From a virus: a DNA stretch of 21,987 bases. The translations under genes and the position numbers were made by a program. Where the stretch lies: IMG/VR virus record IMGVR_UViG_3300021373_002563, positions 1 through 21,987 of that record. One strand, written 5' to 3'. Every line of letters starts with the position of its first letter. The first letter of the stretch is position 1. Shown piece after piece: positions 676 to 21,987 of this stretch. The notes below the pieces were generated by a model. That model made no database searches. It saw only the letters and a list, made by a program, of their open reading frames with translations, and had not been told where the DNA came from.

Positions 676-1394
676 TCTAACTCCATTTCTTTGGTCCAGA
701 TACCTTGTACATCGGAGTACCAAGTACCTACTGTCCGCTTGACAGTGCCGTCAGGGTGATACGCCATTACTTTACACACAGGCACACAACGATTCTCTCG
801 ATTCTCGCCCCAGTGTGTATCGAGCCACACACCATTACGTAGATATGCATTCATATTCTGAACGTATGTATGTGCGGTTTGATATTCCATTCTTATTTTA
901 GCATTATTTGAATCTGGGTCAAGGCTTTTCATGTACGATTGCCACTTTTTGACCCACTCTTTAACCTTCGTTGGGTGCCACGGATGATCATCTTCCATCG
1001 TTGTGAAATCATAACCTGGCTCAACGATTGCTTCACGCAACTGAAACGCCTTTGCTACGGTTGGTTTCAGATTCTTGTCGAGATTATCACGCACACTCTG
1101 TGGCATGAAGCCTAGTGTACGAGCCTTCCAGCCATTCTTCGCATATGCAGAAAGAAACGTTTCAGGTATTTTCTTGGCTTCGTCCGTCAGGTCCCAACCT
1201 GAATCAGTCTCAATCCATCGTCTCATACCATGTGTCAGTTCACGGTCTGATATTTCATGACGAACAAAGTCATCACACTCAAGCCATGCAGAATACATTT
1301 GCTCTTCTGTTTTGGCCTTGCGTAATTTGTCCCACTTGGGCTCAGGCACAAGTGTCTTTTTCTTTTTTGGTGTGAACTTAGGTTTTCTAGCCAT
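657..1394 (-). CDS. Conserved-looking phage protein of unknown function, 245 aa
   Basis: I do not recognise a family with confidence. The protein starts with a lysine/proline-rich basic stretch (MARKPKFTPKKKK, residues 1-13) and is then rich in Trp, Lys, Glu and Asp. It has no hydrophobic segment or signal peptide, so it should be soluble. The Trp-rich middle (around WHPTKVKEWVKKWQSYM) and a C-terminal part with two cysteines (CVPVCKVMAYHPDG) are the most distinctive regions. The ATG at 1394 overlaps the TGA of the carbamoyltransferase gene as TGATG. Its TAA overlaps the second possible gp33 start as TAATG. The basic N-terminus and position beside gp33 would fit a nucleic-acid or transcription-linked role, but that is inference from context only. 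Confidence 0.75.
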   Translation of the reverse strand: MARKPKFTPKKKKTLVPEPKWDKLRKAKTEEQMYSAWLECDDFVRHEISDRELTHGMRRWIETDSGWDLTDEAKKIPETFLSAYAKNGWKARTLGFMPQSVRDNLDKNLKPTVAKAFQLREAIVEPGYDFTTMEDDHPWHPTKVKEWVKKWQSYMKSLDPDSNNAKIRMEYQTAHTYVQNMNAYLRNGVWLDTHWGENRENRCVPVCKVMAYHPDGTVKRTVGTWYSDVQGIWTKEMELECNSVN

Positions 1395-3208
1395 CAGTAT
1401 CCATGCTCAAATTGAGGTTCAAAGATCACGTACATATCATTCTCATGATCATAAACTACAAGATAATCCATTTCAGATTGCTCAAGAATCTTGAATGCTT
1501 CGATATATGTATTCAATATCGGTTTGCCTGCCACGTTAAAAGATGTATTCAGCAATACACCACCGTGAGCATCTAATAAACCATAAACTAATTTGTTGTC
1601 TTTGTCAACCGTCTGTAGCCGAGCAGTACCATCAACATGAGTGATTGACTTGAGTTTTTCTTTATACTCTTCTCGAACATTCACGTTTATGTTCATGTGT
1701 GCAAGATTGTCATAGTGAGGAGACTCAAAGTACTTTGGCGCATCTTCGACCTTACACATCGGAGCAAAGGGTCGATAAGGCTCTCTTTTCTTAACCTTGT
1801 TGATCTTATCTTTCATGTTCGGATAAGACGCATCACACAAAATAGATCGGGCGCCCAAGGCTCTGAGCCCACACTCGGCGGGCCCTTGTATCATGCCTAC
1901 GATATTACCCTCGCGTAAAAGTCGAGCAACAGTGTTAGCACTACCGATAAAATGCCGTCGAGTATTTCTGTAGGCCATCAATTCATCAGCCCAAGAGATT
2001 CTTTCTTTGCTAAACCAATAGCAGTTGTCGCTTACATAAGGACCTGCGTATGTCGGATCAACACGAGTGTCTCTTGATATCAACTCGTTTTCAAAGGCAT
2101 ATCGCATGACCATACCAGTTGCTATTCCTATGTCATTTGGTATAGAGCAAACTTCTACTTTGATACCATATCTTTCTTGTAGTTTTTGATTCATCACTAC
2201 ATTGAGAGAACAGCCGCCCGACATCAACAGAATACCATCATACTCTTCTTTGATTCGGCGAATCATATCTAACGATTCAAGGCGATCTGTTATTTGATTT
2301 TCAAAGGACTGTTGAATGAACGCGGCTCGATTGCATTCTTCTTGAAATGAAAGATCATTCGGCTGCGTGAACTGAACTTCCATCCAATTGTTGCCTGAGA
2401 ATGGGCTTTTTGTTCGCTGTTTGTTGATGATTAATCTGCGTCTATTTTGATAATTATAAGAGTCACGAATCTGAAGGTATAACGCTTGCAGTTCACGTCT
2501 GTCATATGTTTTACCAAAAGCAGACGCGCCCATAATCTTTCCAGGAAGATCATCAGTGAATCCTGTATTACGTGCTATTTTGCCCAGCAAGTAAGTACCT
2601 TTTCTCCAATAATCAGAACCTGGATTCTGTTCAAGAATTTTTCGCTTTCGATATTCTAGCGTTTTATCGCCTATGCGGTCTTCGAACCATTCTTCATTCC
2701 AGTCGTCCCATTCGGGATCGTAAATATCGATGTGTTCAACCATCTTGTCTCGATATCGATCAAAGGTATAATACTGATTAGGACCATCATCACCATATGC
2801 ATCAAACGCCCAGATGAGACCACGATCATGCTTTGTAAACATCACATTTGTATATGCGTGACACCAGTGATGGCCGGGCAAAGGTCCCATAGTATTGCAA
2901 GAAATACCAAAATGCTTTAGATCTTCTTTTTCTAAGTGAAAATGATATCGAGCCGCACTGCCATCAGGTAGACCGGTACAGATATGCTCGAACTTCATCG
3001 GCATACCATTTCTTTTCATGCAAGTCGCGAGTTCTTCGGCTATATTCTGCCAGCGAAGACCACCATACTCTTCATACATTCGAAGATGCTTGTGTCCGGT
3101 GATCTTTTCTGCTTCGAAGACCTTGAGTTCTTTTGTCTTGTAGTTGAAACAGGCGATCGAGGTATTATGACCACCATGATACGCCATCAACCAGCCGTTA
3201 TTGATCAT
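1394..3208 (-). CDS. NodU/TobZ-family O-carbamoyltransferase
   Basis: Predicted to transfer a carbamoyl group from carbamoyl phosphate to a sugar or other hydroxyl, via a carbamoyl-adenylate in this family. At 604 residues it is the usual full length. The N-terminal Kae1-like part starts with GWLMAYHGGHNTSIAC (around residues 5-20). The metal-site histidines appear in LPGHHWCHAYTNVMF, followed by AFDAYGDDGPNQYYTF. MSGGCSLNVVMNQ is the conserved middle signature. The YrdC-like C-terminal part has GPAECGLRALGARSIL. I chose the ATG at 3208, which has AAGGA 7 nt upstream; an in-frame TTG at 3223 lies inside that ribosome-binding site. It overlaps the upstream membrane-protein gene by 11 nt. In a phage with a large glycan block the likely target is a sugar, but the acceptor is unknown. 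Confidence 0.9.
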   Translation of the reverse strand: MINNGWLMAYHGGHNTSIACFNYKTKELKVFEAEKITGHKHLRMYEEYGGLRWQNIAEELATCMKRNGMPMKFEHICTGLPDGSAARYHFHLEKEDLKHFGISCNTMGPLPGHHWCHAYTNVMFTKHDRGLIWAFDAYGDDGPNQYYTFDRYRDKMVEHIDIYDPEWDDWNEEWFEDRIGDKTLEYRKRKILEQNPGSDYWRKGTYLLGKIARNTGFTDDLPGKIMGASAFGKTYDRRELQALYLQIRDSYNYQNRRRLIINKQRTKSPFSGNNWMEVQFTQPNDLSFQEECNRAAFIQQSFENQITDRLESLDMIRRIKEEYDGILLMSGGCSLNVVMNQKLQERYGIKVEVCSIPNDIGIATGMVMRYAFENELISRDTRVDPTYAGPYVSDNCYWFSKERISWADELMAYRNTRRHFIGSANTVARLLREGNIVGMIQGPAECGLRALGARSILCDASYPNMKDKINKVKKREPYRPFAPMCKVEDAPKYFESPHYDNLAHMNINVNVREEYKEKLKSITHVDGTARLQTVDKDNKLVYGLLDAHGGVLLNTSFNVAGKPILNTYIEAFKILEQSEMDYLVVYDHENDMYVIFEPQFEHGY

Positions 3209-10514: not shown

Positions 10515-10946
10515 TTAATCCGAGGTTTTTGATCGATTTCTTCGATCATACTCTTCTTTAGATCCTGGGTATCTCCACGACCAGATTGCTACGCCGAGCA
10601 TGAAGCCACCCGACCACAGCAGTGCGTTGAGATTGCCCGTGGCGTGCCAGAGGATTGCGAGTGAACTGGACATCACCAGTATCATCGCATATTTGAGTCT
10701 CGTTGGAAAGACTCGATACTCAACCCAGTTTGTCAGAAACGGGCCGAAGTGTTTGTGGTTGTATAGCCAGTCGTGCCACTTCTGACTCGACCGGCTGAAC
10801 GCATAAGCAGAAAACACCAGAAAGATCGAAAAAGGGATGCCCGGAGTGACAAACCCAATGTAAGCAATCCCAAGACTGGTGAAGCCTGCTATCTTCCATA
10901 ACGCCCGCTTAAAACGGGAACTGGATACGTTTGAACCTTTCGACAT
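10515..10946 (-). CDS. DUF454 (YbaN-like) inner-membrane protein
   Basis: A 143-residue protein matching the DUF454/YbaN family: basic start (SSSRFKRALWKIAGFTSLG), hydrophobic helix with IAYIGFVTPGIPFSIFLVFS, then AYAFSRSSQKWHDWLYNHKHFGPFLTNW, and two more helices (MILVMSSSLAILWHATG, ALLWSGGFMLGVAIW). The family's ARSS...WL..H..FGP..W signature is clear. The ATG at 10946 lies 38 nt inside the bilin reductase gene, so the two are translationally linked. It is unusual in a phage. Function of the family is unknown; a link to heme or bilin metabolism here is only suggested by the neighbouring genes. Confidence 0.85.
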   Translation of the reverse strand: MSKGSNVSSSRFKRALWKIAGFTSLGIAYIGFVTPGIPFSIFLVFSAYAFSRSSQKWHDWLYNHKHFGPFLTNWVEYRVFPTRLKYAMILVMSSSLAILWHATGNLNALLWSGGFMLGVAIWSWRYPGSKEEYDRRNRSKTSD

Positions 10947-11574
10947 ATTCTCTATCCATACCAAGAACGTTCGTCATCACGTCCTTGCTTCGTTCGTTCT
11001 TTAACTGCCCTTCGCAATAGTCCATCTTACCTTGCTCGTGCGTACAGATCTCTATCTCTGAGTTGGTGGGCTCCATCTTTTCAAGTTCTGTGAACCATGC
11101 ATTCGCCATTGTCAACCCAATATGACACACACGATCGATCTCTTTCTCATCCGCAGTGGCGCCCATGACAACCATGCTGTCACTAAAGAAGTTTGCCCAC
11201 GCAGGTAACTCTCGCTTCCGAGATGCTTCGAAACCATGTGTCATTTTCTTCCACGTCTCATCGATAGGTGAGTTGTGTGTTGTTGGTGACATATCGTGAA
11301 AGCAACCTGTGACCTTGTTCTTACCAACGATCACATCAAAGCCATAGACTGGCATCGGGTAGTTGCGAGCCGAAAAGAATGCGGTGTGCATCATCCACAA
11401 TCCTTTCTCTTCACGCAGATCAACTACTGAGGTGTGTGCGAGTTCGCACCTTACAGATGAATAAAACTTGTTGATGTGATCTCGATGCCATGGCCCTCTC
11501 TCTTCGGGAAAACCACAGTGCCCTTCACAAACAATGTCAAGACTCTTCGTTAAGTCCCGGAATTTGTTCCACAT
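10909..11574 (-). CDS. pcyX: Ferredoxin-dependent bilin reductase, PcyX-like
   Basis: Reduces biliverdin IX-alpha, made by heme oxygenase, with electrons from ferredoxin. The 221-residue protein carries the family core GLWMMHTAFFSARNYPMPVY, then GFDVIVGKNKVTGCFHDMSP. His63 and Asp80 are 17 residues apart, like the catalytic His88/Asp105 pair of PcyA. Later helices (LPAWANFFSDSMVVMGATAD, GLTMANAWF) also fit. A Glu near residue 44 (CELAH) could correspond to PcyA Glu76, but an apparent insertion makes that unclear. GGAGAGG lies just before the ATG at 11574, which overlaps the heme oxygenase gene by 38 nt. The HO-reductase pairing in a non-cyanophage-like genome points to PcyX, reported to yield phycoerythrobilin. 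The subtype is inferred from context, not alignment. Confidence 0.85.
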   Translation of the reverse strand: MWNKFRDLTKSLDIVCEGHCGFPEERGPWHRDHINKFYSSVRCELAHTSVVDLREEKGLWMMHTAFFSARNYPMPVYGFDVIVGKNKVTGCFHDMSPTTHNSPIDETWKKMTHGFEASRKRELPAWANFFSDSMVVMGATADEKEIDRVCHIGLTMANAWFTELEKMEPTNSEIEICTHEQGKMDYCEGQLKNERSKDVMTNVLGMDREYVERFKRIQFPF

Positions 11575-12073
11575 AGCCTCTCCATAGATTTTTCGCTGTA
11601 CGAATGTGTAGACGAAAACCTTCGCTCACTTGCTCTTGATACCACTCTTCCTCTTCGTAAGGGTATTGAAAGTTCTCGCGTATATACTCTCTCGCCCCCT
11701 TGATATCTTCAAACGTATATAGCCTTGCAGATTCAGGATAATGCCTTGACATGATCTGCCCGCCATACAGAAGCCCCATGTAATTCAAATAGATGTGCCC
11801 TTCTAATCGAGGCGCGTATCTTAACACCATTTCGTAGGCAGCCAACGAATATCGTGACTTACCACCCAGAGCCTTGATGTCTTCTCGAATCAACTCACTT
11901 CGACGTAGATCTTCACGTACATGAGGGTCGAGTATTTCAAAGATGTTGAGTTGTGCTTCGAGCCATGCTCGACGTTCAGTGGTGGTCAACTCACCTCTGA
12001 ACATTTTCTGATTGAACGGTTGCTCTTCGAGCAGGTCATGCAGTACTTGCGTTTTCTCTTTTATTAAAGACAT
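11537..12073 (-). CDS. ho1: Heme oxygenase (biliverdin-producing)
   Basis: Opens heme to biliverdin IX-alpha, CO and iron, using O2 and electrons from ferredoxin. The 178-residue protein begins SLIKEKTQVLHDLLEEQPFN; His12 fits the proximal heme ligand. The distal-helix signature appears as YLNYMGLLYGGQIM at residues 96-108, equivalent to YLGDLSGGQ in other heme oxygenases. At residue 101 Leu replaces the conserved Asp (Asp140 in human HO-1). At 178 residues it is shorter than the 230-240 usual for cyanobacterial HO1. The ATG at 12073 is chosen over an in-frame TTG at 12076. It overlaps the exonuclease by 38 nt and the bilin reductase by 38 nt, which implies a biliverdin-to-bilin unit. Confidence 0.85.
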   Translation of the reverse strand: MSLIKEKTQVLHDLLEEQPFNQKMFRGELTTTERRAWLEAQLNIFEILDPHVREDLRRSELIREDIKALGGKSRYSLAAYEMVLRYAPRLEGHIYLNYMGLLYGGQIMSRHYPESARLYTFEDIKGAREYIRENFQYPYEEEEWYQEQVSEGFRLHIRTAKNLWRGYVEQIPGLNEES

Positions 12074-12725
12074 CAATCGTTTTCTTCAATTCGGGAGCCC
12101 ACTCATCGCGGTGCTCAATAAAGACTTGCGGCTCATCATCATCAACCGCGATTATTGTGACTAATTGGGAGACAGGCAGCCCGGTTCTTTCTTCGAACAT
12201 GATCGCATACGCGGCTTCTTGCTGGAAGTATTGCTTGATTCCGCTTCGATACTTTTTTCGCTTTGCTGTTTTGAAATCAATGATTGATATCTTTCCGTCA
12301 AATTCAGCAACACAATCGACACGCCCAGCAAGACATAAATGGTCGCTGTAAAGAGCACATTCCTGCGCGTAAACCTTGCCGATTCTTTCATCTAGTATGC
12401 CTCTAACGCTCCGGAAGTTATCAATGATATTAGGCATATAGCCAGATACGTAATCATCCACGTTATCCAGATACTTCTCGATAATCTCATGAACTGCCGT
12501 ACCTCGCTGACTAGCACGATAAGAAACTCTATTAGCCTCTTCTTCACCTACTCTCGCCTTCCAAGCCGCAATAAATTTTTCTGATAGTATACTGAGAACC
12601 GTTGTCACAGACGGATATGCATTCCCATCGGGAGTTATATAGCGTCTTTGACCATTTTTTTCGACAGTTTCGAGATCTTTTATTTCGAGATCAGCGTGTT
12701 CGAACTTTTTTCTGTTTGCGTTCAA
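12036..12725 (-). CDS. PD-(D/E)XK (RecB-like) phage exonuclease
   Basis: Resembles the Cas4/RecB-like exonuclease found in marine T4-like phages, likely acting in DNA recombination or degradation. Visible motifs are YPSVTTVLS near residue 37, GTAVHEIIEKYL with His79, then AGRVDCVAEFDGKISIIDFK, which holds Asp137, Asp150 and Lys152 of the nuclease core. QQEAAYAIMFEE supplies the Gln-Tyr motif. At 229 residues it is normal. The start is unusual: the only in-frame candidate is TTG at 12725, with AAGG 9 nt upstream, inside the preceding gene; the nearest ATG is far too late. I found no cysteine cluster for an iron-sulphur centre. Confidence 0.85.
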   Translation of the reverse strand: MNANRKKFEHADLEIKDLETVEKNGQRRYITPDGNAYPSVTTVLSILSEKFIAAWKARVGEEEANRVSYRASQRGTAVHEIIEKYLDNVDDYVSGYMPNIIDNFRSVRGILDERIGKVYAQECALYSDHLCLAGRVDCVAEFDGKISIIDFKTAKRKKYRSGIKQYFQQEAAYAIMFEERTGLPVSQLVTIIAVDDDEPQVFIEHRDEWAPELKKTIDVFNKRENASTA

Positions 12726-13467
12726 TTGCTTCTAACCTTCTTCGCGTTGCTCTATTCATGGGCGCTTGTACACCCGGATTCACTTGCTGTTGATCCATAC
12801 CACGACCATCAGAAATGTCAGATTCATCATCACGTTGTTGTGCAGATGATAACTTATCATTATACAGTTCTACACGCACATTGTCAAGTTTTGGCACCTT
12901 GAGATTGTCATGATTGTGATGCAAAACGAATTCGGTTTTTGGGAATTCACGGAAGATGTCACGCCAGATTGGGCGCCAGATATTCAAGAGACGGTAGTTG
13001 TTGATCTGCCCTCGGTCACTTGACAATGCAAGGTCAGTCGAACTACGCATATTGAAATCAAAGATAGTGTCAAAGCCATATAGGTGAACTTCGTCAGCCT
13101 TTTGCTTGTTAGCGGCATAGTGTACCGCCATATGCCCACAGTTAAAGTTGGTAGGATTGACGGCATATTCAGGCACGTGTGTATAGAACTCTTTCACACG
13201 AGGCGCATACTTGAGATAAAAACTGCTTTGCTCATACATCCAAATTCTTGGTCGAGTGCCTAGAATCCATTCGTATTTGTCTAGTTTGACTGAGCCTTCA
13301 TTGAGCGCCATCATCATCTTGAAGTCAACCATACAAGTGGCGTATGGTTTTACAGGAGGATCAAACGGAGGCATATTACACAAAAGCAATTTGCCGGGTC
13401 TCGGTTTCTCTGTGTAGTAAACGGCTCGATCACCGTTACCCAATACGTGCCAAACTTTACTGCTCAT
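12691..13467 (-). CDS. Conserved-looking phage protein, possibly transferase-like, with basic tail
   Basis: A 258-residue protein. The N-terminus (MSSKVWHVLGNGDRAVYY, then GKLLLCNMPPF) and the middle (FNCGHMAVHYAANKQKADEV followed by HLYGFDTIFDFN) have the look of a Rossmann-type sugar transferase, perhaps distantly like sialyltransferases or DUF115 proteins. HHNHDNLKVP adds histidines. It lies at the end of the glycosyltransferase run. The last 25 residues (NRATRRRLEAIERKQKKVR) are strongly basic and resemble a short phage motif, preceded by a Gln/Asp-rich linker, so the tail may be a fused module. Identity is uncertain. Confidence 0.55.
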   Translation of the reverse strand: MSSKVWHVLGNGDRAVYYTEKPRPGKLLLCNMPPFDPPVKPYATCMVDFKMMMALNEGSVKLDKYEWILGTRPRIWMYEQSSFYLKYAPRVKEFYTHVPEYAVNPTNFNCGHMAVHYAANKQKADEVHLYGFDTIFDFNMRSSTDLALSSDRGQINNYRLLNIWRPIWRDIFREFPKTEFVLHHNHDNLKVPKLDNVRVELYNDKLSSAQQRDDESDISDGRGMDQQQVNPGVQAPMNRATRRRLEAIERKQKKVRTR

Positions 13468-14134
13468 TGTACATCATCTTCTGTATCTGTAATTTACCCT
13501 TGTGCCCAGTCCAATGCATCGCAACTTTGTCGTTGCTGTCCAAACCGTCGAGTATATCTAGACGTAGCCAATTGTAGCGAGGCGGCAGTGTAGTGATGTT
13601 TATCTCACGTTCGAGAGGTGTCACACGAACCATCTCGTGAAGAACTTCTTGGTCACCGACTTTCGGGTTGTTTGAACACTCTTTCTCCCATGCTGGCAAT
13701 ATACGAGGCGTACCACGCATCGCAACAACACCTGAGTTGTGCCACTTTTCACCACGTCTCTTTGTCCAACCACGATCTTCACACATAGCGAGTTTACCAT
13801 TCTCTACGTATTTAAAGAGCGTTGACATATCGCCTGTGATATGAATGTCGGTATCGAGCCAGCAGACTTCTTCGTACATTAGACACGTCTGAAACATCGC
13901 CTTTGGTTTATAGAACCAGCCCTGCCCTCGCTGAATCGGCATTTCGATAACGTCTGCGAAACCCAACATACCCAGTTTCGCTTTCATGTCAGCCGACACA
14001 CCAAAGTTGGCAAAGACAAGATCGGTCTTATTGTGTTTGCGATAGTGTTTAACAAACCACTCTAGCATCCACTCAGTGTTTTGATCACAGCCAGTCAGAA
14101 AGGCTCTAGATTTTAACGATTTCATAGTTTTCAT
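13457..14134 (-). CDS. GT-A fold glycosyltransferase-like protein
   Basis: A 225-residue protein with a GT-A nucleotide-sugar binding DxD motif in CWLDTDIHITGDM (Asp94, Asp96), preceded by GQGWFYKPKAMFQTCLMYEE, the typical lead-in of family 8-like enzymes. Later MHWTGHKGKL resembles the C-terminal metal-ligand histidine region. It would transfer a sugar from a nucleotide donor. Overlap with the previous gene is 29 nt from the ATG at 14134, or 20 nt if the next ATG at 14125 is used; neither has a clear ribosome-binding site, so translation may depend on coupling. Acceptor unknown. Confidence 0.82.
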   Translation of the reverse strand: MKTMKSLKSRAFLTGCDQNTEWMLEWFVKHYRKHNKTDLVFANFGVSADMKAKLGMLGFADVIEMPIQRGQGWFYKPKAMFQTCLMYEEVCWLDTDIHITGDMSTLFKYVENGKLAMCEDRGWTKRRGEKWHNSGVVAMRGTPRILPAWEKECSNNPKVGDQEVLHEMVRVTPLEREINITTLPPRYNWLRLDILDGLDSNDKVAMHWTGHKGKLQIQKMMYNEQ

Positions 14135-14762
14135 TGTAGTTGTGCTTGGCTTGACAGCCTGTTACATTTTGAATCGTAGTGAACGTATCTTTGACTACGA
14201 CTGGCCAAGGGTAGTATTCTTGCAACCAAGGGAAGAAATCCACATTCAAAAAGACATCGGTGGCGCCGGCATAGTTTGTAGCCCGATCACATAGAATCTG
14301 TGCGGCTTTAGGCTTCAGTCGATACGCATGAGCGCCAGGTAAATATCGTTTGCTCGTAAGAGGTATCACACCCATTTGTAAAGGCTGTACAAACTTACCG
14401 TAACTTGGTGCGCCCAGACTCACCATGCCATCATACATCATGAACCTAGGTATATCATTTACAACGACTGCATCATGCTCGAAGATAAGAAACTCTTCTT
14501 TGCCTTTCGCACATTGAGCCCACAACCGATAGTGTGATAGAAATGTACTCAGAACATTATCAGGTCGGCTGCCGACATCATGCTTGAAACCTTCGGTGTT
14601 GAGTTGTAACTTCTTTGCGATCTCCCAAGGTCCTTTCTTAGGCGTGATCGCATCGAAGATTTCAACATCTAGATTTGCACGGTCTTTGGCTGAGTTGATA
14701 CATCGTTCTGCTATCTCTACCGATTTATCAAGTGATGTGATTGTGATTACAAATGCTTTCAT
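14106..14762 (-). CDS. GT25-like (LPS-type) glycosyltransferase
   Basis: A 218-residue protein resembling family 25 glycosyltransferases, which add sugars to bacterial lipooligosaccharides or glycoproteins. Typical features are the start MKAFVITITSLDKSVEIAERC, FDAITPKKG, an SHYRLWAQC helix, and the metal/donor motif EHDAVVV at residues 95-100. GAHAYRLKPKAAQIL is the usual later segment. The ATG at 14762 overlaps the preceding TGA as ATGA without a ribosome-binding site. A related gene lies at 15360-16058, suggesting duplication. Sugar and acceptor unknown. Confidence 0.82.
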   Translation of the reverse strand: MKAFVITITSLDKSVEIAERCINSAKDRANLDVEIFDAITPKKGPWEIAKKLQLNTEGFKHDVGSRPDNVLSTFLSHYRLWAQCAKGKEEFLIFEHDAVVVNDIPRFMMYDGMVSLGAPSYGKFVQPLQMGVIPLTSKRYLPGAHAYRLKPKAAQILCDRATNYAGATDVFLNVDFFPWLQEYYPWPVVVKDTFTTIQNVTGCQAKHNYNENYEIVKI

Positions 14763-15367
14763 ACATTAAGTGTATTATATGATACATTAAGTGTATTTTC
14801 TAATACAGTATATCCTACGTTTGCTGTCTCTCTAAACTTGACTCGCCATGGTGAGATACCCTCATTGATCCAAGCGTTCGCTACTTGCCATAGTCTGTCA
14901 TCTGGCTTACCAAACAAGCGTGAAGTATCATGAAGAATGATGTACTTCTTTGTTACAGGTCCGTGTAGACGTAACTCTTGAATCAAATGCGCTGGTTGGT
15001 GATTACTATCTATCAGCAGACAATCGACAGGTGTTGCCGTCTGAGGGTCAATGCTTGATTGCTCACGTATCTTCAGTTTAATACCATATTCGTCACAGTA
15101 GTCACGAAAGATTTGCTCGAAAGGTCTCCATTTCTCAAAACTAATATCGACCAATTCTACAGATTTTGGATTTGTGAGACAAGCGGCTGCCGCTGACGCG
15201 CCTTGGTGAGTACCAAGTTCACGGTATGACTTACAAGTTTTCATGCACTCTCGCATTGCATCATGTTGCCAGCAATATTCTGCGCCATGGGCTTCTTGGT
15301 GTTGATCGCGAATTTCGCGATAGAACTCTACCAGATGTTTTACGTGGTCTAGTTTAGCATTAATCAT
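14759..15367 (-). CDS. Class I SAM methyltransferase-like protein (TylF/cephalosporin-hydroxylase type)
   Basis: A 202-residue protein of the Methyltransf_24-type group, which often O-methylates sugars. Motif I is YRELGTHQGASAAA near residue 48. VELVDIS follows, and the metal-binding-like strand VDCLLIDSNHQPAHLIQELR then YIILHDTS fits this group. It should use SAM supplied by host or phage MetK. The ATG at 15367 overlaps the preceding TAA by 8 nt. The C-terminus ends in the tandem NTLNV repeat. Substrate unknown; sugar methylation is inferred from the glycosyltransferases on both sides. Confidence 0.75.
   Translation of the reverse strand: MINAKLDHVKHLVEFYREIRDQHQEAHGAEYCWQHDAMRECMKTCKSYRELGTHQGASAAAACLTNPKSVELVDISFEKWRPFEQIFRDYCDEYGIKLKIREQSSIDPQTATPVDCLLIDSNHQPAHLIQELRLHGPVTKKYIILHDTSRLFGKPDDRLWQVANAWINEGISPWRVKFRETANVGYTVLENTLNVSYNTLNV
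14761..14802. repeat. Tandem 21-bp repeat at the end of the methyltransferase gene
   Basis: ATACATTAAGTGTATT occurs at 14761-14776 and again at 14782-14797, offset by exactly 21 bases (7 codons), giving NTLNV twice at the protein C-terminus. Each unit is itself a palindrome (ATACA-ttaag-TGTAT). It overlaps the next gene's start. It looks like a recent in-frame duplication, or a small regulatory element. Confidence 0.75.
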
Positions 15368-16058
15368 TTTTAATTCTCTCCAGTAATGCCTCTACATCTC
15401 CTGAGGTGCTTGTTGGCATATAAGTTAAATTCTTTTCACGTAACGCGCCTCGATGCGTATCCCATTGTGACTCAGACACGTGATTGCCTACAACAACCGG
15501 TTGCCCTTTGAATGGGCTCTCCTTGAGCCAACCCATAATGTGTCTACTCATGTTGTCATGCCCGACGAAACCAGTCTTCTCGTACTGGTCGTTATACTTC
15601 TGAGCATTTGCGGCATTCGTGACATAGCCATGCGTGTGCTGATCCATAGAGCAAAGATTAATCACTTTGTTCTCGTAGTTTCTGAACGGCAACTCGCGCT
15701 GAACGATTGCATCATGCTCTAAAACAACCGCTGTTTCATTATTCTCAATGATTTGTTTTCGAACCATATAGTGACTCATTGTCATTGACTGTTGCATCAC
15801 CAACATACGATTCATCATTTCGGGATTGATTGGCTTGCCCGCTTTACGCTCAAAATTCATCTTGAGACGTTTTGCATATTCAATCTCGATGTCCCATCCA
15901 GGATAAACTTCTTCAAGATTATAAGGCGTGATAGCCTTGAACTCTACTGGTCTCAAACCAGACATCTTACAAGACCGAATGCATCTCTCGGTCAATGCTT
16001 TGACCTTCTCGTTTTCGGGAAAGGCAAAGCGTGTAGTAATGATGTATGCTTTAAACAT
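15360..16058 (-). CDS. GT25-like glycosyltransferase, second copy
   Basis: A 232-residue protein of the same general type as the gene at 14106. It begins MFKAYIITTRFAFPENEKVK, has LTERCIRSCKMSGL, then FKAITPYNLEE, an SHYMVRKQI helix, and VVLEHDAIVQ with the EHD motif at residues 114-116. These correspond in order to the other copy. The C-terminal half differs, so the two may use different sugars or acceptors. The ATG at 16058 overlaps the preceding TAA by 8 nt. Confidence 0.78.
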   Translation of the reverse strand: MFKAYIITTRFAFPENEKVKALTERCIRSCKMSGLRPVEFKAITPYNLEEVYPGWDIEIEYAKRLKMNFERKAGKPINPEMMNRMLVMQQSMTMSHYMVRKQIIENNETAVVLEHDAIVQRELPFRNYENKVINLCSMDQHTHGYVTNAANAQKYNDQYEKTGFVGHDNMSRHIMGWLKESPFKGQPVVVGNHVSESQWDTHRGALREKNLTYMPTSTSGDVEALLERIKND

Positions 16059-16869
16059 CTATCCATTTCTCGACGGGTTCATTCACGATGATATCGTGCC
16101 ATCTTTCGTTTTTGTCATCGGCGCCGCGCAACTGAACGTGTACTAATTTAGGTTCTTCAACTTGAGCGCGGCCATCCCATACAGGGCGATGCCCAGTAAT
16201 GTCTTTGTCGCCGTTGTAATGTACGAAACAGTTCCAACCAGCATCCATTACAGTATACTCAGATACCAGCATCATGGCAATCAGATAGTTCTGGTCGATT
16301 CTGTAAAAGGTCGGCAGCCCAGGTGTGCTATTACACCAGTCGATATACGTTTGAAAGGGTAGCCAATTTTCTTGTGCGTTCTTGCGAGCCTCACGATCAT
16401 AGAGTACAACACCAGTGTTGTAGATCTTGACTTGCCCTTCGTTGTTACGCAGTACGTCTTTGCCCCATCTTTCTTTGACCATCGTCGCCCACTTCTCATC
16501 ATTTGCAGAGTTGAGGTGTGACTTTGTGGTCATATGAATCTTTTCTTTGTGTGGCTCATCTACGATACCGATACCTTTGTAGCCTTGAGCAAAGATGTCA
16601 ATATCAAGATCTCTTACTGGAAATATATCGCAGTCAAGAAAAAGAATATTGTCATACTCATCAAACTCAGGATCAAACAAAGGGCGAAACGCGGTGTAGT
16701 AATGCGGTATCGTAAGTTTACCACCAGGCACGTTTTGAAATACAGGATTCATCTCAAACATATGCTCTGCGCCGATGCGCTCTGCCCACTCACCTATGAG
16801 TTTTCTAGACTGAGCGGCTTCGGGTGGTGGATTACCACTCCAATATTGATAGATTAAATTCTTAGCCAT
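16051..16869 (-). CDS. GT8-like glycosyltransferase (DxD type)
   Basis: A 272-residue GT-A enzyme. It starts MAKNLIYQYWSGN, nearly the same as the gene at 21007 (MAKNLIFQYY), so the two are paralogues. The DxD motif is ILFLDCDIFPVRDL (Asp79, Asp81). Later YNTGVVLYDREARKN and FYRIDQNYLIAMML fit acceptor and donor-site helices of this type. HVQLRG near the C-terminus is the usual metal-ligand region. GGAG lies 7 nt before the ATG. It overlaps the epimerase gene by 8 nt. Its donor might be the epimerase product, but this is not shown. Confidence 0.82.
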   Translation of the reverse strand: MAKNLIYQYWSGNPPPEAAQSRKLIGEWAERIGAEHMFEMNPVFQNVPGGKLTIPHYYTAFRPLFDPEFDEYDNILFLDCDIFPVRDLDIDIFAQGYKGIGIVDEPHKEKIHMTTKSHLNSANDEKWATMVKERWGKDVLRNNEGQVKIYNTGVVLYDREARKNAQENWLPFQTYIDWCNSTPGLPTFYRIDQNYLIAMMLVSEYTVMDAGWNCFVHYNGDKDITGHRPVWDGRAQVEEPKLVHVQLRGADDKNERWHDIIVNEPVEKWIDV

Positions 16870-17797
16870 GATAATGCTCCATATACCATTTTACAAAATT
16901 GTCTACGCCTTCTTCTATTGAAGTTTTGGGTGCATAACCCAACTTCTGTAACTTTGTGGTGTCGGAAGCCGTTTCTTTTGCGTCAGCAGGATGTTTTGGT
17001 CCGTACTCAATGATCGCATCAACACCCAATGAGTTCTGAATAGCATCAACGAATCGTTGCAGTTCGATTACCTCGCCTCGACCAATCGAGTACATATCAC
17101 GAGGCGTCATGTTGTTTACCACACACTCGATGCCTTGCACGATATCATCAACATAAGTGAAGTCTCGCTTCATATCACCGTAGTTAAACAGTGTGATAGG
17201 GTTGCCTGCAAGTATGTTCTTTGTGAAATCGAACAGCGCCATGTCAGGTCTGCCCCATGGTCCGTACACCGTAAAGAACCTCAGACCAACAGCGTTCGGT
17301 ATCGTTGATATGTTAAACTGAGATTCGTTAATATACTTGCTGTAGCCATAAGGGTTAATCTGAGGGTAAAGATACTCAGGCTCACCCCAAGGCAAAGGGT
17401 TACCATGCATCACACAGGATGTAGAGGCATAGATTACATTCTGTACATCGTGAGTTTCAAGTGCACGAATAAGATTCAGTGTGCCTAGACAGTTCGTCTT
17501 GATGTATTCGTCTGCGTGATCCATCGAGTAACGCACACCTGCCATTGCACCAAGGTGTATCACGAGATCTGGTTGAGCAAGCCCAACAAGACGCATCATT
17601 GCTTCGGGATCTTCTAGATCGGCAGCCGTAAATTTGATGCCCCACTCTTCTAGACGTTTGACCCGTTTGATCTTTAATCTGTTATCATAGTAGTTGTTTA
17701 AATTATCAAAGCCAACCACTTGATGCCCAAGTTCTTGCATACGCAACGCAGTATGCATACCGATAAAACCGGCGATGCCGGTTATCATAATCTTCAT
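16862..17797 (-). CDS. NAD-dependent sugar-nucleotide epimerase (UDP-glucuronate 4-epimerase-like)
   Basis: A 311-residue short-chain dehydrogenase of the extended type. The NAD-binding start is MKIMITGIAGFIGMHTALRM, with Gly-x-x-Gly-x-x-Gly at 7-13. A Ser/Thr site sits in VIYASTSCVMHGN near 125, and the catalytic YGYSK at 150-154. HLGAMAGVRYSMDHADEYI and GDMKRDFTYVDDIV are typical of UDP-glucuronate 4-epimerases, which make UDP-galacturonate. It could follow the dehydrogenase at 3684-4463 in a UDP-uronic acid route, although 4-epimerases of other sugars look similar. The ATG overlaps the preceding TGA as ATGA. Confidence 0.88.
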   Translation of the reverse strand: MKIMITGIAGFIGMHTALRMQELGHQVVGFDNLNNYYDNRLKIKRVKRLEEWGIKFTAADLEDPEAMMRLVGLAQPDLVIHLGAMAGVRYSMDHADEYIKTNCLGTLNLIRALETHDVQNVIYASTSCVMHGNPLPWGEPEYLYPQINPYGYSKYINESQFNISTIPNAVGLRFFTVYGPWGRPDMALFDFTKNILAGNPITLFNYGDMKRDFTYVDDIVQGIECVVNNMTPRDMYSIGRGEVIELQRFVDAIQNSLGVDAIIEYGPKHPADAKETASDTTKLQKLGYAPKTSIEEGVDNFVKWYMEHYHG

Positions 17798-18444
17798 GCT
17801 GGTTTCCTGTGTTTAACAGTTCGTCTGCCGCCGCCATAATTACCGCGAATAGTTGTAGCATGAACTGTAATGTCTGGCTGAAATGTGGGTGACTCCCACA
17901 CTTCTTCTCGATGTGAACCAAGAGTCATTAAAAACTGATCAACGTCTTCGTAGCAATAGTTTAAATTTGGATCAGTTGTTGTGTTTTGCACACGACCAAG
18001 AGACGGATGGGCTTTAGAATAACCACCATGAAACTCCATCACAAGACTACCGCCTGGCGCAAGTTGCTCATACCAGGTGGTCAAGGCTTTCTCTGGATCA
18101 AGGCAATGATCAAACACATTCGTATAGATCAGATCAAATTTACCTTTCCACTCTTCTTTTGGTTCATGCATATCCCACTGAACTGTCATGGGATATTTTT
18201 CACAGCCTTCGGCAATCTCTGTGCCGATTACTTTTGCTCCATACTCTCTCGCAAAAAACTCTTGCTCATAACCCGCTCGTGTGCCATGACACAGTATGTT
18301 TTTGGCACTAGGTATTCGTTTTTTGATTTCGAGTACGGTTTCTCGGCCAACGCCTGAATGACTTTTCTCTTTTCTGAGATAACCTGCGTTTTGTGCCTTT
18401 ACATAATCCTCATATGAACTGTATTCTAAAACTTTATCTTTCAT
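17794..18444 (-). CDS. SAM-dependent methyltransferase-like protein
   Basis: A 216-residue class I methyltransferase-like protein. The SAM site is a degenerate NILCHGTRAGYEQEFF near residue 49, followed by AKVIGTEIAEGCEKYP as the acidic strand (Glu) and FDLIYTNVFDHCLDPEKAL as the motif IV region. LAPGGSLVMEFHGGYSKAH is the usual post-motif segment. The normal DxGxG is replaced by HGTRAG, so activity cannot be assumed. The C-terminus is basic. The ATG overlaps the preceding TGA as ATGA. Confidence 0.72.
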   Translation of the reverse strand: MKDKVLEYSSYEDYVKAQNAGYLRKEKSHSGVGRETVLEIKKRIPSAKNILCHGTRAGYEQEFFAREYGAKVIGTEIAEGCEKYPMTVQWDMHEPKEEWKGKFDLIYTNVFDHCLDPEKALTTWYEQLAPGGSLVMEFHGGYSKAHPSLGRVQNTTTDPNLNYCYEDVDQFLMTLGSHREEVWESPTFQPDITVHATTIRGNYGGGRRTVKHRKPA

Positions 18445-19016
18445 CTAATTGCTAACCCTGCGTAAACTCCTTCGCTAGTATATATCGTTGGTGTATTTAA
18501 CTCAAGTACGTGGTAACCATAGTATCGAAACCATTGTCGCCAATCATTTGCAGACCACTTGATCACGTGTGTTGGATCAGCACGTGAACATTCAAGTACG
18601 TAATCATCTTCACCCTCTCTACACACAGGCATTCGAAAGGCAATTGTCTTACTGTTCAATTGCTCGAAAGTGTTGACAAGATCATCTTCGTTCATATGCT
18701 CAAACACATCAAGAGCAAACGTAACTCCATAGGTTTGATTAAAGTCTATCTCTTTTGAGACAAGATGCCCACGTTCGCGGGCCTTGCTCAAAGCCCAATC
18801 ACTAATGTCAACACCAACAACATCGTATCGTTCTTTCTTAATTCCATCCATAAGAAACCCTACAGCACAACCAAAGTCAAGAAACGGCTCCTTGTCAAGA
18901 TTCAGATAGCGAAGAATGTGTAAGAGATCACGAGCGGTCTGAATGTACTTGGCGCCTCTCTCCATGTAGTTGTCATAATTGACAGAGTTGTAGTACTTCT
19001 CATCAAATTCAGTCAT
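18441..19016 (-). CDS. SAM-dependent methyltransferase
   Basis: A 191-residue class I methyltransferase. Motif I is FLDFGCAVGFLMDGI (residues 45-59), the acidic strand is VVGVDISDWALSKA, and motif IV is VTFALDVFEHMNEDD. The N-terminus (YYNSVNYDNYMERGAKY) and the short length match small sugar or nucleotide-sugar methyltransferases in phage glycan clusters. The ATG at 19016 overlaps the radical SAM stop as ATGA. The substrate is unknown. Confidence 0.85.
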   Translation of the reverse strand: MTEFDEKYYNSVNYDNYMERGAKYIQTARDLLHILRYLNLDKEPFLDFGCAVGFLMDGIKKERYDVVGVDISDWALSKARERGHLVSKEIDFNQTYGVTFALDVFEHMNEDDLVNTFEQLNSKTIAFRMPVCREGEDDYVLECSRADPTHVIKWSANDWRQWFRYYGYHVLELNTPTIYTSEGVYAGLAIR

Positions 19017-20125
19017 GCAAAATTCCTGTCATTTTCATCCATAGACTGCGCAACCGTGTGTAGCAGACGGTTGTTGTTATAGTAAAGACACGTACCACAA
19101 GATGTGTCCCAGTTATCGCCTTTGTTGTTTCTCACTTGATACGGATAACCGTACATGGCGTAGTTTACGTTACACTCTCGATAGATCTGTTTTACGTTAT
19201 CGATGCTACCAAGAGAGAACTCTAGATCGTATGTACGCTTTTCAAGTACGTGACTCGTGCACATATAGATCTGATAATCACCACCATCAGGATGAGGTGC
19301 GATGTAGGGTCGTGTAAGCCCAACATAGCAACCTTCTTTGAACGCCACATCATTGTCCCAAATCTCTTTGATAAAAAACTTGTTGTGTCGATCTAGTTCT
19401 TGAATCACGGGACGAAAGATCTGTTGTGCTTCGACCTGTGCACCAGGCACCAATGCATTGCCTGCGATACGACAGAACTTAATCTCGGGATTGAGTTCAA
19501 TCAATCGTGCAATCTTTTTGATTGTTTCGGGTGATGTACCAGGATATATTTTTCTTGTGCGTGACAATTCGTCAGGCTGATCGCCGGTGCTTTCATAGAT
19601 GATGTATGACAGCCCGATTCTATCGAGAGGAAAGCCACCGAAGTTATAGTCTTCAGGCTCTTTACCCTCATCGAGTTTAATCAGAGACACACGAATCCAG
19701 TTGATCATATCATAGACCTTCGGATCGAGGTGTCGCGTGAAGTCTTCGGTGTTCGTGATGATGCCTACATCATAGCCTATGCCTGCGGCGTATCGTATCA
19801 CATCATTGATATTCTTGCCGGCTTCTTTGTCACGATACAGCATCGGGTTACCGCCACCTGTGATCTCTACAGCCTTGGCACCCAGATGTTTGAACTCAAG
19901 CAACATCTTGATGAGTTTGTGATAGGGTATAAAACTCTTGAGCGGTCTCGCGGCCACAGAACAGAACGGGCAGTCTGAGTCGCAAGACTCACACAAAGCC
20001 AACTGAATGTTAATTGGTTTGAAGGTGTCTTCGTATTGTATTGCGTGAAGCACATCGGTGTGTTGCAGATACTTGTCGCCCCACGTGCTGTACTTCTGAG
20101 TTTTTTCTTCGAATGATTCAGACAT
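19013..20125 (-). CDS. Radical SAM enzyme with C-terminal cysteine cluster
   Basis: Uses an iron-sulphur cluster and SAM to start radical chemistry on an unknown substrate. The CX3CX2C motif is visible in LCESCDSDCPFCSVA (Cys48, Cys52, Cys55 from the ATG at 20125). KAVEITGGGNPMLYRD is the usual GGE-like strand. The C-terminus has CNVNYAMYGYP then SCGTCLYYNNN, extra cysteines that could bind an auxiliary cluster as in SPASM or Twitch domains. I chose the ATG at 20125 (370 residues) because it has AAGGG just upstream; 41 earlier codons overlap the previous gene. It may modify a sugar or a methyl-acceptor for the glycan cluster. Confidence 0.85.
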   Translation of the reverse strand: MSESFEEKTQKYSTWGDKYLQHTDVLHAIQYEDTFKPINIQLALCESCDSDCPFCSVAARPLKSFIPYHKLIKMLLEFKHLGAKAVEITGGGNPMLYRDKEAGKNINDVIRYAAGIGYDVGIITNTEDFTRHLDPKVYDMINWIRVSLIKLDEGKEPEDYNFGGFPLDRIGLSYIIYESTGDQPDELSRTRKIYPGTSPETIKKIARLIELNPEIKFCRIAGNALVPGAQVEAQQIFRPVIQELDRHNKFFIKEIWDNDVAFKEGCYVGLTRPYIAPHPDGGDYQIYMCTSHVLEKRTYDLEFSLGSIDNVKQIYRECNVNYAMYGYPYQVRNNKGDNWDTSCGTCLYYNNNRLLHTVAQSMDENDRNFA

Positions 20126-20417
20126 AATCCCTTGCATCATACATTGTTGTTGTTCTATCTTTTTCTTCTTTTGACATTGACTTCGCATCAGGCCAGCCGT
20201 CTTTACCATGCCAACGTGGCTCAAGTATGCGCCCTTCTTCAAGTGCAATCATCGTCTCGTATGTAGGTATGGCATAGTCGGGCGTCACAAATACGTTGCC
20301 TTTTGTGGGTATGTGATTACGTACAAATCTGCACACCTCAGGGCGATCAACGTATTTGAGTTCGAGAGGTTCCCAGAATTCAGAATAGCCATCACCCATG
20401 ATTGATACTGTTACCAC
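20118..20417 (-). CDS. Unknown small protein, 99 aa
   Basis: A 99-residue soluble protein (VTVSIMGDGYSEFWEPLELK, then VDRPEVCRFVRNHIPTKGN). It is acidic and Pro/Trp-rich, with a lysine-rich tail (KSMSKEEKDRTTTMYDARD). I do not recognise a family. The GTG at 20417 overlaps the preceding TAA by 7 nt; an ATG at 20399 is an alternative that would lose six residues. Its 3' end overlaps the radical SAM gene by 8 nt, so a partner role for that enzyme is possible but not supported by any motif. Confidence 0.6.
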   Translation of the reverse strand: MVTVSIMGDGYSEFWEPLELKYVDRPEVCRFVRNHIPTKGNVFVTPDYAIPTYETMIALEEGRILEPRWHGKDGWPDAKSMSKEEKDRTTTMYDARDYV

Positions 20418-21022
20418 GGTTTTCTCGCTTCAATAACTGAACTATGCATTTTACGTATTTCTCCCGGTGTGTCAATACCATTGAAACCAGAAACATTGCT
20501 TTTACCATACTGACATTCTTTGACATTAGTGAAGCCAAGTGCAGTGAGTGTCTCTTTCATCTCTTCGACACGCCACAGATACAGGTGTTCTCCTTTCTGA
20601 TACAGCAGACCTAGAGCCACTTGTTCTTGTGGTCGTTTTCTTTTATGCCCATCAGCACAGAATTGTTCTTCTACTATGTACCGCTTATAGTAGTGTTGTA
20701 CGAACGGATCGTTGGTGAGATCCTCATCGCCTACCAAATACTCAATAAAATCGTATGACGGCCACACAGTACGAATCACACCACCTGGTTTTAAAACACG
20801 ATATGCTTCTTTGAACAGATTCACACCTTGATAGTGATAAAAATGTTCGATGAAATGTTCTGAATACACACCATCATAGTAATTGCCAGGAACACCTTTG
20901 ATAGGCAATTCTGTCAGATCTTGTAACAGAATACCTTTGTCGCCATAGTTGCTTGCGATGTTTACACCGTCCCAGTTCAGACCGCGCTTTCGGTTTGCAC
21001 CAAGTTCTAGATAGGTTGCCAT
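20411..21022 (-). CDS. SAM-dependent methyltransferase
   Basis: A 203-residue class I methyltransferase. Motif I is TYLELGANRKRGLNWDG near the start, with DGVNIASN as the acidic strand. The motif IV region is YDGVYSEHFIEHFYHYQG, and RVLKPGGVIRTVWPS is the classic post-motif segment. A lysine/arginine-rich CADGHKRKRPQ insert is unusual. It resembles Methyltransf_11-type sugar methyltransferases. It overlaps the preceding gene by 16 nt. Substrate unknown. Confidence 0.85.
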   Translation of the reverse strand: MATYLELGANRKRGLNWDGVNIASNYGDKGILLQDLTELPIKGVPGNYYDGVYSEHFIEHFYHYQGVNLFKEAYRVLKPGGVIRTVWPSYDFIEYLVGDEDLTNDPFVQHYYKRYIVEEQFCADGHKRKRPQEQVALGLLYQKGEHLYLWRVEEMKETLTALGFTNVKECQYGKSNVSGFNGIDTPGEIRKMHSSVIEARKPW

Positions 21023-21777
21023 ACACTTAACTCCGTATGTTCTAATTTAGGCATAGTGAATTTAGAACGCGCAAGAAAATGATTGATCTTGCCGTCATGT
21101 TTTCCCTGCCATTGATAAGGCAGACGATTCCAATAAGGTTCAAGTTCTGTAACATTGAACACAGGTTGAGATAGTTGAAGATTGATATACATTTGTTCGG
21201 TGTATCGTGTGTGCAGTACATAGTCATCAACAGACGTAAAGTGTTCACGTGCTTTAAGTCTACCTTCTCGCGTCCATAACTGCAAGCCACCGTTCATGTA
21301 TCGATACGGGTCACTTGGGCACGTCACTGACTTAGGGAAAGACCACTTTTTACCAAACAGATGTTTGCCATATGCTTTGATACCACGTTTTTCAAGAGGC
21401 GGGTCCATAACCTTTGCAATCCAATTTTTAAGAGGACCGTTCTGAAATAAACCCACTTCGTGCACCATACCAACATCTTTGACAAATACTTTAAAAATGT
21501 TTTGACGTGTAGCGACAAGCATATCAAGATCGAGTGTCAACACCTTGTCGAACTGATCGAACCACGGATCATAGAAGATACGTAGCGAGTCGAGTCTCGG
21601 ATCTAGATGTGGAAAATATCGGTCATGAGACAGTTTGTACTCTGCGCCACAAATGTCTGCGTATGCTCGTGCTGATCGGCTGCCTGCCTGTGCCCAATCT
21701 GGCATCTTATCGCCGCCCATGTCAGCATCAAACGATTCATACGGTATGTAATATTGAAAGATTAAATTTTTTGCCAT
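21007..21777 (-). CDS. GT8-like glycosyltransferase (DxD type), second copy
   Basis: A 256-residue GT-A enzyme starting MAKNLIFQYYIPYES. The DxD motif is VLTLDLDMLVATRQ (Asp83, Asp85). YMNGGLQLWTREGRL and MYINLQLSQPVFN follow, as in the paralogue at 16051. FLARSKFTMPKLEHTELSV ends it. The ATG at 21777 is preferred because it aligns with the paralogue and AGAAG lies near it; a start at 21789 would add four residues. It overlaps the next gene upstream by 16 nt. Confidence 0.82.
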   Translation of the reverse strand: MAKNLIFQYYIPYESFDADMGGDKMPDWAQAGSRSARAYADICGAEYKLSHDRYFPHLDPRLDSLRIFYDPWFDQFDKVLTLDLDMLVATRQNIFKVFVKDVGMVHEVGLFQNGPLKNWIAKVMDPPLEKRGIKAYGKHLFGKKWSFPKSVTCPSDPYRYMNGGLQLWTREGRLKAREHFTSVDDYVLHTRYTEQMYINLQLSQPVFNVTELEPYWNRLPYQWQGKHDGKINHFLARSKFTMPKLEHTELSVWQPI

Positions 21778-21987
21778 GCTTCTCGCCACTCATCTGCGAA
21801 GTCACAATTTTTGTATGCATCAAACCAAGGTCCACCATCAGTATAGTGAATAATATTTGGTTTGTCAAGATCATGATAGTAACCCGACAGATAGTTCCAG
21901 GTGTGATGCAACGAGCCGATCTTGTTTGCCCATTTCATTTGATGCAAATCACTGGGCTGTGCTTGGTTCACGTACTCGTTTGTGAGA
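21762..21987 (-). CDS. Glycosyltransferase, C-terminal part (cut by window end)
   Basis: Open from the window edge at 21987, about 74 residues. It reads LTNEYVNQAQPSDLHQMKWA, then IGSLHHTWNYLSGYYHDLDK followed by IIHYTDGGPWFDAYKNCDFADEW. This is the C-terminal signature of phage and marine-bacterial GT-A (GT8-like) enzymes, where a HYT-GGPWF motif carries the metal-ligand histidine. The start lies outside the window; a GTG at 21971 is not likely to be a true start, because the frame and the family signature continue past it. Confidence 0.75.
   Translation of the reverse strand, partial: LTNEYVNQAQPSDLHQMKWANKIGSLHHTWNYLSGYYHDLDKPNIIHYTDGGPWFDAYKNCDFADEWREAWQKI

Follow-up and report, generated by a model that had tools for sequence, protein, structure and literature searches.

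What use a virus without visible photosynthesis genes might have for a heme-to-bilin pathway is the question raised by the window, a 21,987-bp stretch of DNA that represents a whole IMG/VR record. All genes that can be recognised in it are encoded on the minus strand, among them a heme oxygenase (HO) that is followed by a ferredoxin-dependent bilin reductase (FDBR). Such an HO-FDBR cassette is not new as such. Phage cassettes that combine an HO with the reductase PcyX have already been published, the cultured pelagiphage Mosig (Pelagibacter phage Mosig EXVC030M) carries one, and hemO-pcyA/X-valaS cassettes are described in PMC11480375, where their purpose is called enigmatic. New, as far as found, are a distinct and strongly supported clade in which both the FDBR and the HO are altered (here called the Ser type) and the linkage of this cassette to a DUF454 gene. 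Neither the clade nor DUF454 in HO-FDBR cassettes was found described in the literature compared here.

The cassette in the window is read here as a coupled unit with which a T4-like myovirus would turn heme into a bilin. It belongs to a divergent clade in which the proton chemistry of both enzymes would have changed together, with both enzymes still active and a product other than phycocyanobilin (PCB). We give this reading a probability of roughly 0.6.

Gene order and predicted folds of the cassette

An exonuclease gene, the HO, the FDBR and a small DUF454/YbaN-family gene follow one another along the minus strand (Table 1). The earlier note on this DNA, made from the sequence alone, had described the HO and the FDBR as a heme-to-bilin unit with an overlap of 38 nt. 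The gene pair and its overlap hold, and both genes match their Pfam families, but the third member of the cassette had been overlooked. The DUF454 gene likewise begins within the FDBR, with 38 nt (10909-10946) shared by the two genes, and a GGAGAGG stretch is located just 5′ of the FDBR ATG. The HO-FDBR overlap of 38 nt in the window compares to mostly 11-26 nt in its relatives. With this layout, the three genes are probably translationally coupled.

Table 1. Cassette features in the window.
Feature	Position	Strand	Evidence or remark
PD-(D/E)XK exonuclease, phage core gene	12036..12725	-	phrog_298, E=2.5e-71; directly upstream of HO, overlaps HO start
HO, variant of the Ser-type clade	11537..12073	-	PF01126, E=3.6e-8; PDB profile; residue mapping; AlphaFold/Foldseek
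HO end/FDBR start overlap	11537..11574	-	38 nt
FDBR, PcyX-related	10909..11574	-	PF05996, E=3e-16; 5owg, E=1.6e-29; alignments; tree; AlphaFold/Foldseek
DUF454/YbaN-family small membrane protein, third cassette gene	10515..10946	-	PF04304, E=8.2e-26

The FDBR comprises 221 amino acids and scores 60.2 bits against PF05996, compared to a curated cut-off of 31. Its closest solved structure is that of PcyX_EBK42635 (PDB-ID: 5owg). The AlphaFold model (pLDDT 94.2) is matched by Foldseek to PcyA (E 4e-13), and matches to PebB, PcyX, PebA and HY2 are likewise obtained, which predicts an FDBR fold. The HO has 178 amino acids when read from the ATG at 12073 and lies above the PF01126 cut-off; all 23 clade HOs scanned match this family. 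A profile of 23 HO relatives retrieves HmuO and human HO-1/HO-2 from the PDB with E-values of about 1e-16 to 1e-15 (best 5.6e-16), and the AlphaFold model (pLDDT 87.9) is predicted by Foldseek to resemble HmuO and other HOs (E 2.5e-6). Assignment to another member of the HO-fold superfamily is unsupported, as the family match extends to every clade HO scanned and the best 50 structural matches listed are all heme oxygenases.

The ratio dN/dS for HO, FDBR and DUF454 lies at 0.04-0.36 between relatives where it can be estimated, with several more distant pairs saturated at synonymous sites, among them the window and the related contig L003 for FDBR and HO. Judged by these ratios, the three genes are under purifying selection. 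A chance match or a pseudogene is ruled out by dN/dS together with the conservation, and because the models also match PcyA and HO in Foldseek, the family matches are far beyond chance. In one relative (L025, 1620-2430) the FDBR frame is split into two overlapping ORFs, which represents a frameshift or an assembly error. No Rfam family and no tRNA was found in the window.

Matched active-site changes in two cassette types

The catalytic triad of PcyA (Glu76/His88/Asp105) is incomplete in the window FDBR. His63 and Asp80, which the earlier note had correctly compared to PcyA-type enzymes, align with His88/Asp105 of PcyA and with His69/Asp86 of PcyX, and the pair is invariant across the Ser-type clade. 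The glutamate is substituted by Ser49, which takes the position of PcyA Glu76 and of PcyX Asp55 (PcyA and PcyX residues were counted from their sequences, those of 5owg after its tag). In PcyA, Glu76 is needed for the reduction of the 18-vinyl group (PMC10151467). Asp55 has been titled the “PcyX specific catalytic residue”, and its absence in phage CB_2 was linked to a different product, PCB (PMC11480375).

In the FDBR tree, the window falls inside the phage PcyX radiation together with 5owg and Mosig (58-row group, support 95/98) and apart from cyanophage PebS and from cyanobacterial and cyanophage PcyA; the tree contains no pre-PcyA sequence. The note's label of a PcyX-like reductase is therefore right in placement and in the His-Asp pair, but with Asp55 replaced and the HO altered the window does not encode a plain PcyX. 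The fold and the His88/Asp105 equivalents are common to PcyA and the window FDBR, which differ in Glu76 and in clade. PebS, which is phage-encoded as well, is distant in the tree, has ~13% identity over the structural alignment and, as read from the alignment, an Asn in place of His63. The pre-PcyA enzymes of heterotrophic bacteria lack Glu76 as the window does and are reported to form PPhiB and PEB, but they are devoid of His88, whose equivalent is present in the window FDBR (PMC10151467).

The HO is altered in a corresponding manner. The proximal His25 (human HO-1 numbering) is kept as His12, and it is invariant in the clade together with the equivalents of Glu29, His132, Tyr134, Tyr137, Gly143 and Gly144. 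The residues of the distal relay are all substituted: Tyr58 by Phe45, Arg136 by Asn97, Asp140 by Leu101 and Asn210 by His156.

Two cassette types can be differentiated by these residues. Among the matches listed in the IMG/VR searches, 39 further contigs belong to the window's Ser type, and a 40th related contig (L021) ends before the diagnostic FDBR residue. The Asp (PcyX) type is represented by at least 55 IMG/VR contigs and by Mosig from GenBank (56 loci); it is under-sampled, as one IMG/VR search provided the best 80 of at least 584 matches. Every sister FDBR on an uncut contig has an HO nearby. The Glu76/Asp55 position holds Ser in all members of the Ser-type clade and Asp in the Asp-type loci (56 sampled), with one extra residue in the surrounding segment of L066 and L068 making their alignment register less certain. 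The 32 distinct HOs of the Ser type carry Phe or Met for Tyr58, Asn for Arg136 and Met, Phe, Leu, Val or Trp for Asp140 without exception, and His for Asn210 in 29 of them. The 50 distinct HOs of the Asp type retain Tyr58 and Asp140 in every case and Arg136 in 33, while Asn210 occurs in none. The pairing is thus exact: Asp140 is absent from 32/32 Ser-type HOs and present in 50/50 HOs that stand beside an Asp-type FDBR.

The Ser type forms one clade in the FDBR tree (23 rows, support 100/100, stem branch 1.48) and one clade in the HO tree (22 rows, support 100/100, stem branch 1.66). Each residue change maps to one branch, and on these trees the coupled change is a single joint evolutionary event. 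For this reason, the exact correlation between Ser and the loss of Asp140 does not amount to many independent observations. The window and L003 provide a second kind of evidence. Their FDBRs are sisters with 71% identity, whereas their HOs are only 36% identical and belong to different HO subclades. As judged from the trees, HO genes were exchanged between Ser-type sublineages. A cassette that mixes Ser and Asp types was not found among the sampled loci. Exchange within the Ser type combined with the lack of such mixtures suggests that HO and FDBR must match each other.

The published HO-PcyX cassettes (PcyX_EBK42635/5owg, Mosig and the contigs of PMC11480375) share with the window the overlapping HO and FDBR genes, T4-like phages as carriers, the PcyX radiation and the His/Asp pair. 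In the window, however, the FDBR is only ~35% identical to that of Mosig and has Ser for Asp55, the HO is devoid of Asp140, Tyr58 and Arg136, and the linked third gene is DUF454, not valaS. A rival reading is an ordinary PcyX cassette. Here the substitutions would be neutral, the HO would yield biliverdin IXα, and the reductase would form phycoerythrobilin in a four-electron reduction via 15,16-dihydrobiliverdin as in Asp-type PcyX. The nesting of the clade in the PcyX radiation, the retained His/Asp pair and the identical gene order in Mosig fit this reading. It is nevertheless unlikely, since the same residues are lost in both enzymes of every member, on two long branches, and since PMC11480375 regards Asp55 as specific to PcyX and ties its absence to PCB.

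For the window, PCB is an unlikely product because the glutamate that is required for 18-vinyl reduction is missing. FDBR products are hard to predict from sequence (PMC13193486), and here the product cannot be read from known relatives because the key acidic residues of both enzymes are replaced. Judged from the residues present, the likelier products are phycoerythrobilin and a two-electron bilin.

DUF454, iron and the activity of the heme oxygenase

The product of the third gene matches PF04304 with 90.7 bits (cut-off 35.1), and its hydropathy peaks lie in the first third. DUF454 follows the FDBR in 24 of the 41 Ser-type cassettes (the window and 23 others, L021 counted), 14 of which (the window and 13 others) show an FDBR-DUF454 overlap of exactly 38 nt. 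It stands beside none of the 56 Asp-type loci sampled. The FDBR subclade with DUF454 (12 rows, support 100/92) is consistent with a single gain of the gene.

In the preferred reading, the HO would open heme to biliverdin, iron and CO, and the FDBR would then draw on a host ferredoxin for the electrons to reduce biliverdin; a viral ferredoxin was not detected on 50 contigs. The DUF454 protein would reside in the inner membrane and probably handle heme or bilin there. The exchange of the distal relay Tyr58/Arg136/Asp140/Asn210 for Phe, Asn, a hydrophobic residue and His would have occurred together with that of the FDBR acid (Glu76/Asp55) for Ser, and both enzymes are most likely still active with other proton donors. 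Presumably, the phage would benefit from the unit. On an Acinetobacter baumannii plasmid, the genes for a TonB hemoglobin receptor, a biliverdin-producing HO and DUF454 are lined up together, and ybaN of E. coli belongs to the Fur regulon (PMC7157518). A general linkage of DUF454 to heme genes in alphaproteobacteria was tested in 30 loci and is not general: the neighbors varied, and the only heme-related one among those listed was HemY_N, located beside the best-matching DUF454. The link to heme is a lead only.

The A. baumannii gene row and the place of ybaN in the Fur regulon also suit a reading in which iron is the purpose. The phage would strip host hemes of iron to supply those of its own enzymes that depend on it, which would leave only the disposal of biliverdin to the reductase and DUF454. 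A role of such cassettes in iron supply has been discussed (PMC11480375), the gene directly after the FDBR in L013 and L018 encodes a protein that, as read from its sequence, resembles 2OG-Fe(II) oxygenases, and ALA synthase is absent from the 28 Ser-type contigs searched, compared to 3/22 Asp-type contigs that contain it. However, iron could be gained with a plain HO, conservation of the FDBR implies a role for the bilin, and a ferrochelatase, which consumes iron, is found near HO-PcyX in Mosig. Taken together, iron as the sole purpose is improbable. In the Mosig genome (L002), this annotated ferrochelatase (11240-12010) lies upstream of HO-PcyX at a distance of ~2.3 kb, a stretch that contains several 2OG-Fe(II) oxygenases, so that Mosig could, by its gene content, both make and open heme.

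The HO could also be inactive as a heme oxygenase by analogy with human HO-1, which the D140A substitution turns into a peroxidase (PMC5623701). It would then only bind heme, act as a heme peroxidase or carry bilins, and the reductase would use host biliverdin or another open-chain tetrapyrrole. The joint replacement of Asp140, Arg136 and Tyr58 in all 32 distinct sequences points in this direction. Against it stand the invariant residues from His25 to Gly144 and the retention of the HO beside the FDBR in complete cassettes. In addition, HO activity is still possible despite the loss of the relay because plant HO-1 works without Arg136 and Asp140 (PMC7948506). We consider an inactive HO quite unlikely. 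The plant enzymes differ in that they carry His150 and Ala149 at these sites, whereas in the phage clade these are occupied by a bulky hydrophobic residue and Asn, and in the profile search the phage HOs are closer to HmuO and human HO-1 than to plant HO-1. Activity by another proton route is plausible for the window HO, with Asn97 and His156 as candidates.

Phage genome and host

Sister contigs with the same gene neighborhood contain T4-type baseplate wedge and hub genes, and the aquatic virus is taken as a T4-like myovirus. Among named records, Phage C48C1, which has no stated host, comes closest in the baseplate and exonuclease genes (57.7% for the exonuclease), ahead of cyanophages; another core gene is closest to that of pelagiphage HTVC008M. 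The earlier note had called the genome non-cyanophage-like. This applies to its gene content but less to its kinship, as its T4-like relatives have their closest named phages in the Kyanoviridae, which comprise both cyanophages and pelagiphages. That no photosystem or phycobilisome markers are visible can be extended from the window to 28 sister contigs: these fragments, the longest of which has 62 kb, contain no Photo_RC, phycobilisome or PHY domain, and no phytochrome was found on 36 records. The gene absences on Ser-type contigs are provisional because the longest one searched measures 62 kb. On the FDBR tree and the missing photosynthesis markers, a cyanophage origin is rejected. A cyanophage gene set that maintains phycobilisome pigment during infection is highly improbable. 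Cyanophages are often the closest named T4-like records besides Phage C48C1, but the FDBR branches apart from PebS and from PcyA of cyanophages, the 29 records lack Photo_RC and phycobilisome genes, and a tblastn search of 50,697 phage records with the HO gave no match at E<=0.01.

An alphaproteobacterial host, which the earlier note had proposed for such cassettes, applies to the Asp-type cousin Mosig, the sole one with a known host (PMC7892664); for this genome it stays a candidate. A host scan of species genomes returned a single match, L137, which has an Asp-type FDBR and thus provides no host for the Ser-type clade. L137 is a 29.9-kb contig with the FDBR at its edge in a MAG labelled Rickettsiales (SAT45), likely a phage contig or a binning error. 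Among 385 sampled genomes of the class of this MAG, only two others have any FDBR match, one of them below the cut-off, and neither was placed in the tree.

Further genes in the window include a small DUF6552 gene (PF20189, 7281-7580, E=3e-16), which is also present in L022 and L023; the hosts in which this family occurs could point to that of the phage. Glycosyltransferase, epimerase and methyltransferase genes and a weak radical-SAM match make up a long run (13457-21789). Together with a carbamoyltransferase (1394-3208), this run looks like an island for sugar modification, and it differs from one relative to another. On the Asp-type side, the contigs L089 (278 kb) and L091 (358 kb) combine HO-PcyX with ALA synthase and a T4-type gp23 capsid gene and are larger than the published Mosig genome.

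A bolder and tentative extension of the preferred reading is that the Ser-type pair is a matched couple whose chemistry is unlike that of every characterized HO-FDBR pair. The HO would use another proton route or differ in cleavage position or product, the reductase would be tuned to that product, and DUF454 would move heme or bilin across the inner membrane. The bilin would lie outside the HO-1 and PcyX pathways, in a host without phycobilisome use.

A second, separately evolving cassette type whose two enzymes carry matched active-site changes offers a direct test of what the pathway is for. Should the Asp and Ser types yield different products, it is the bilin that matters; should both types only free iron and discard the pigment, the products should converge. 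The Ser-type HO would be a natural heme oxygenase without the Asp/Arg/Tyr relay that is held central in mutagenesis studies, and the linked DUF454 gene may provide a hypothesis for a widespread and uncharacterized membrane family.
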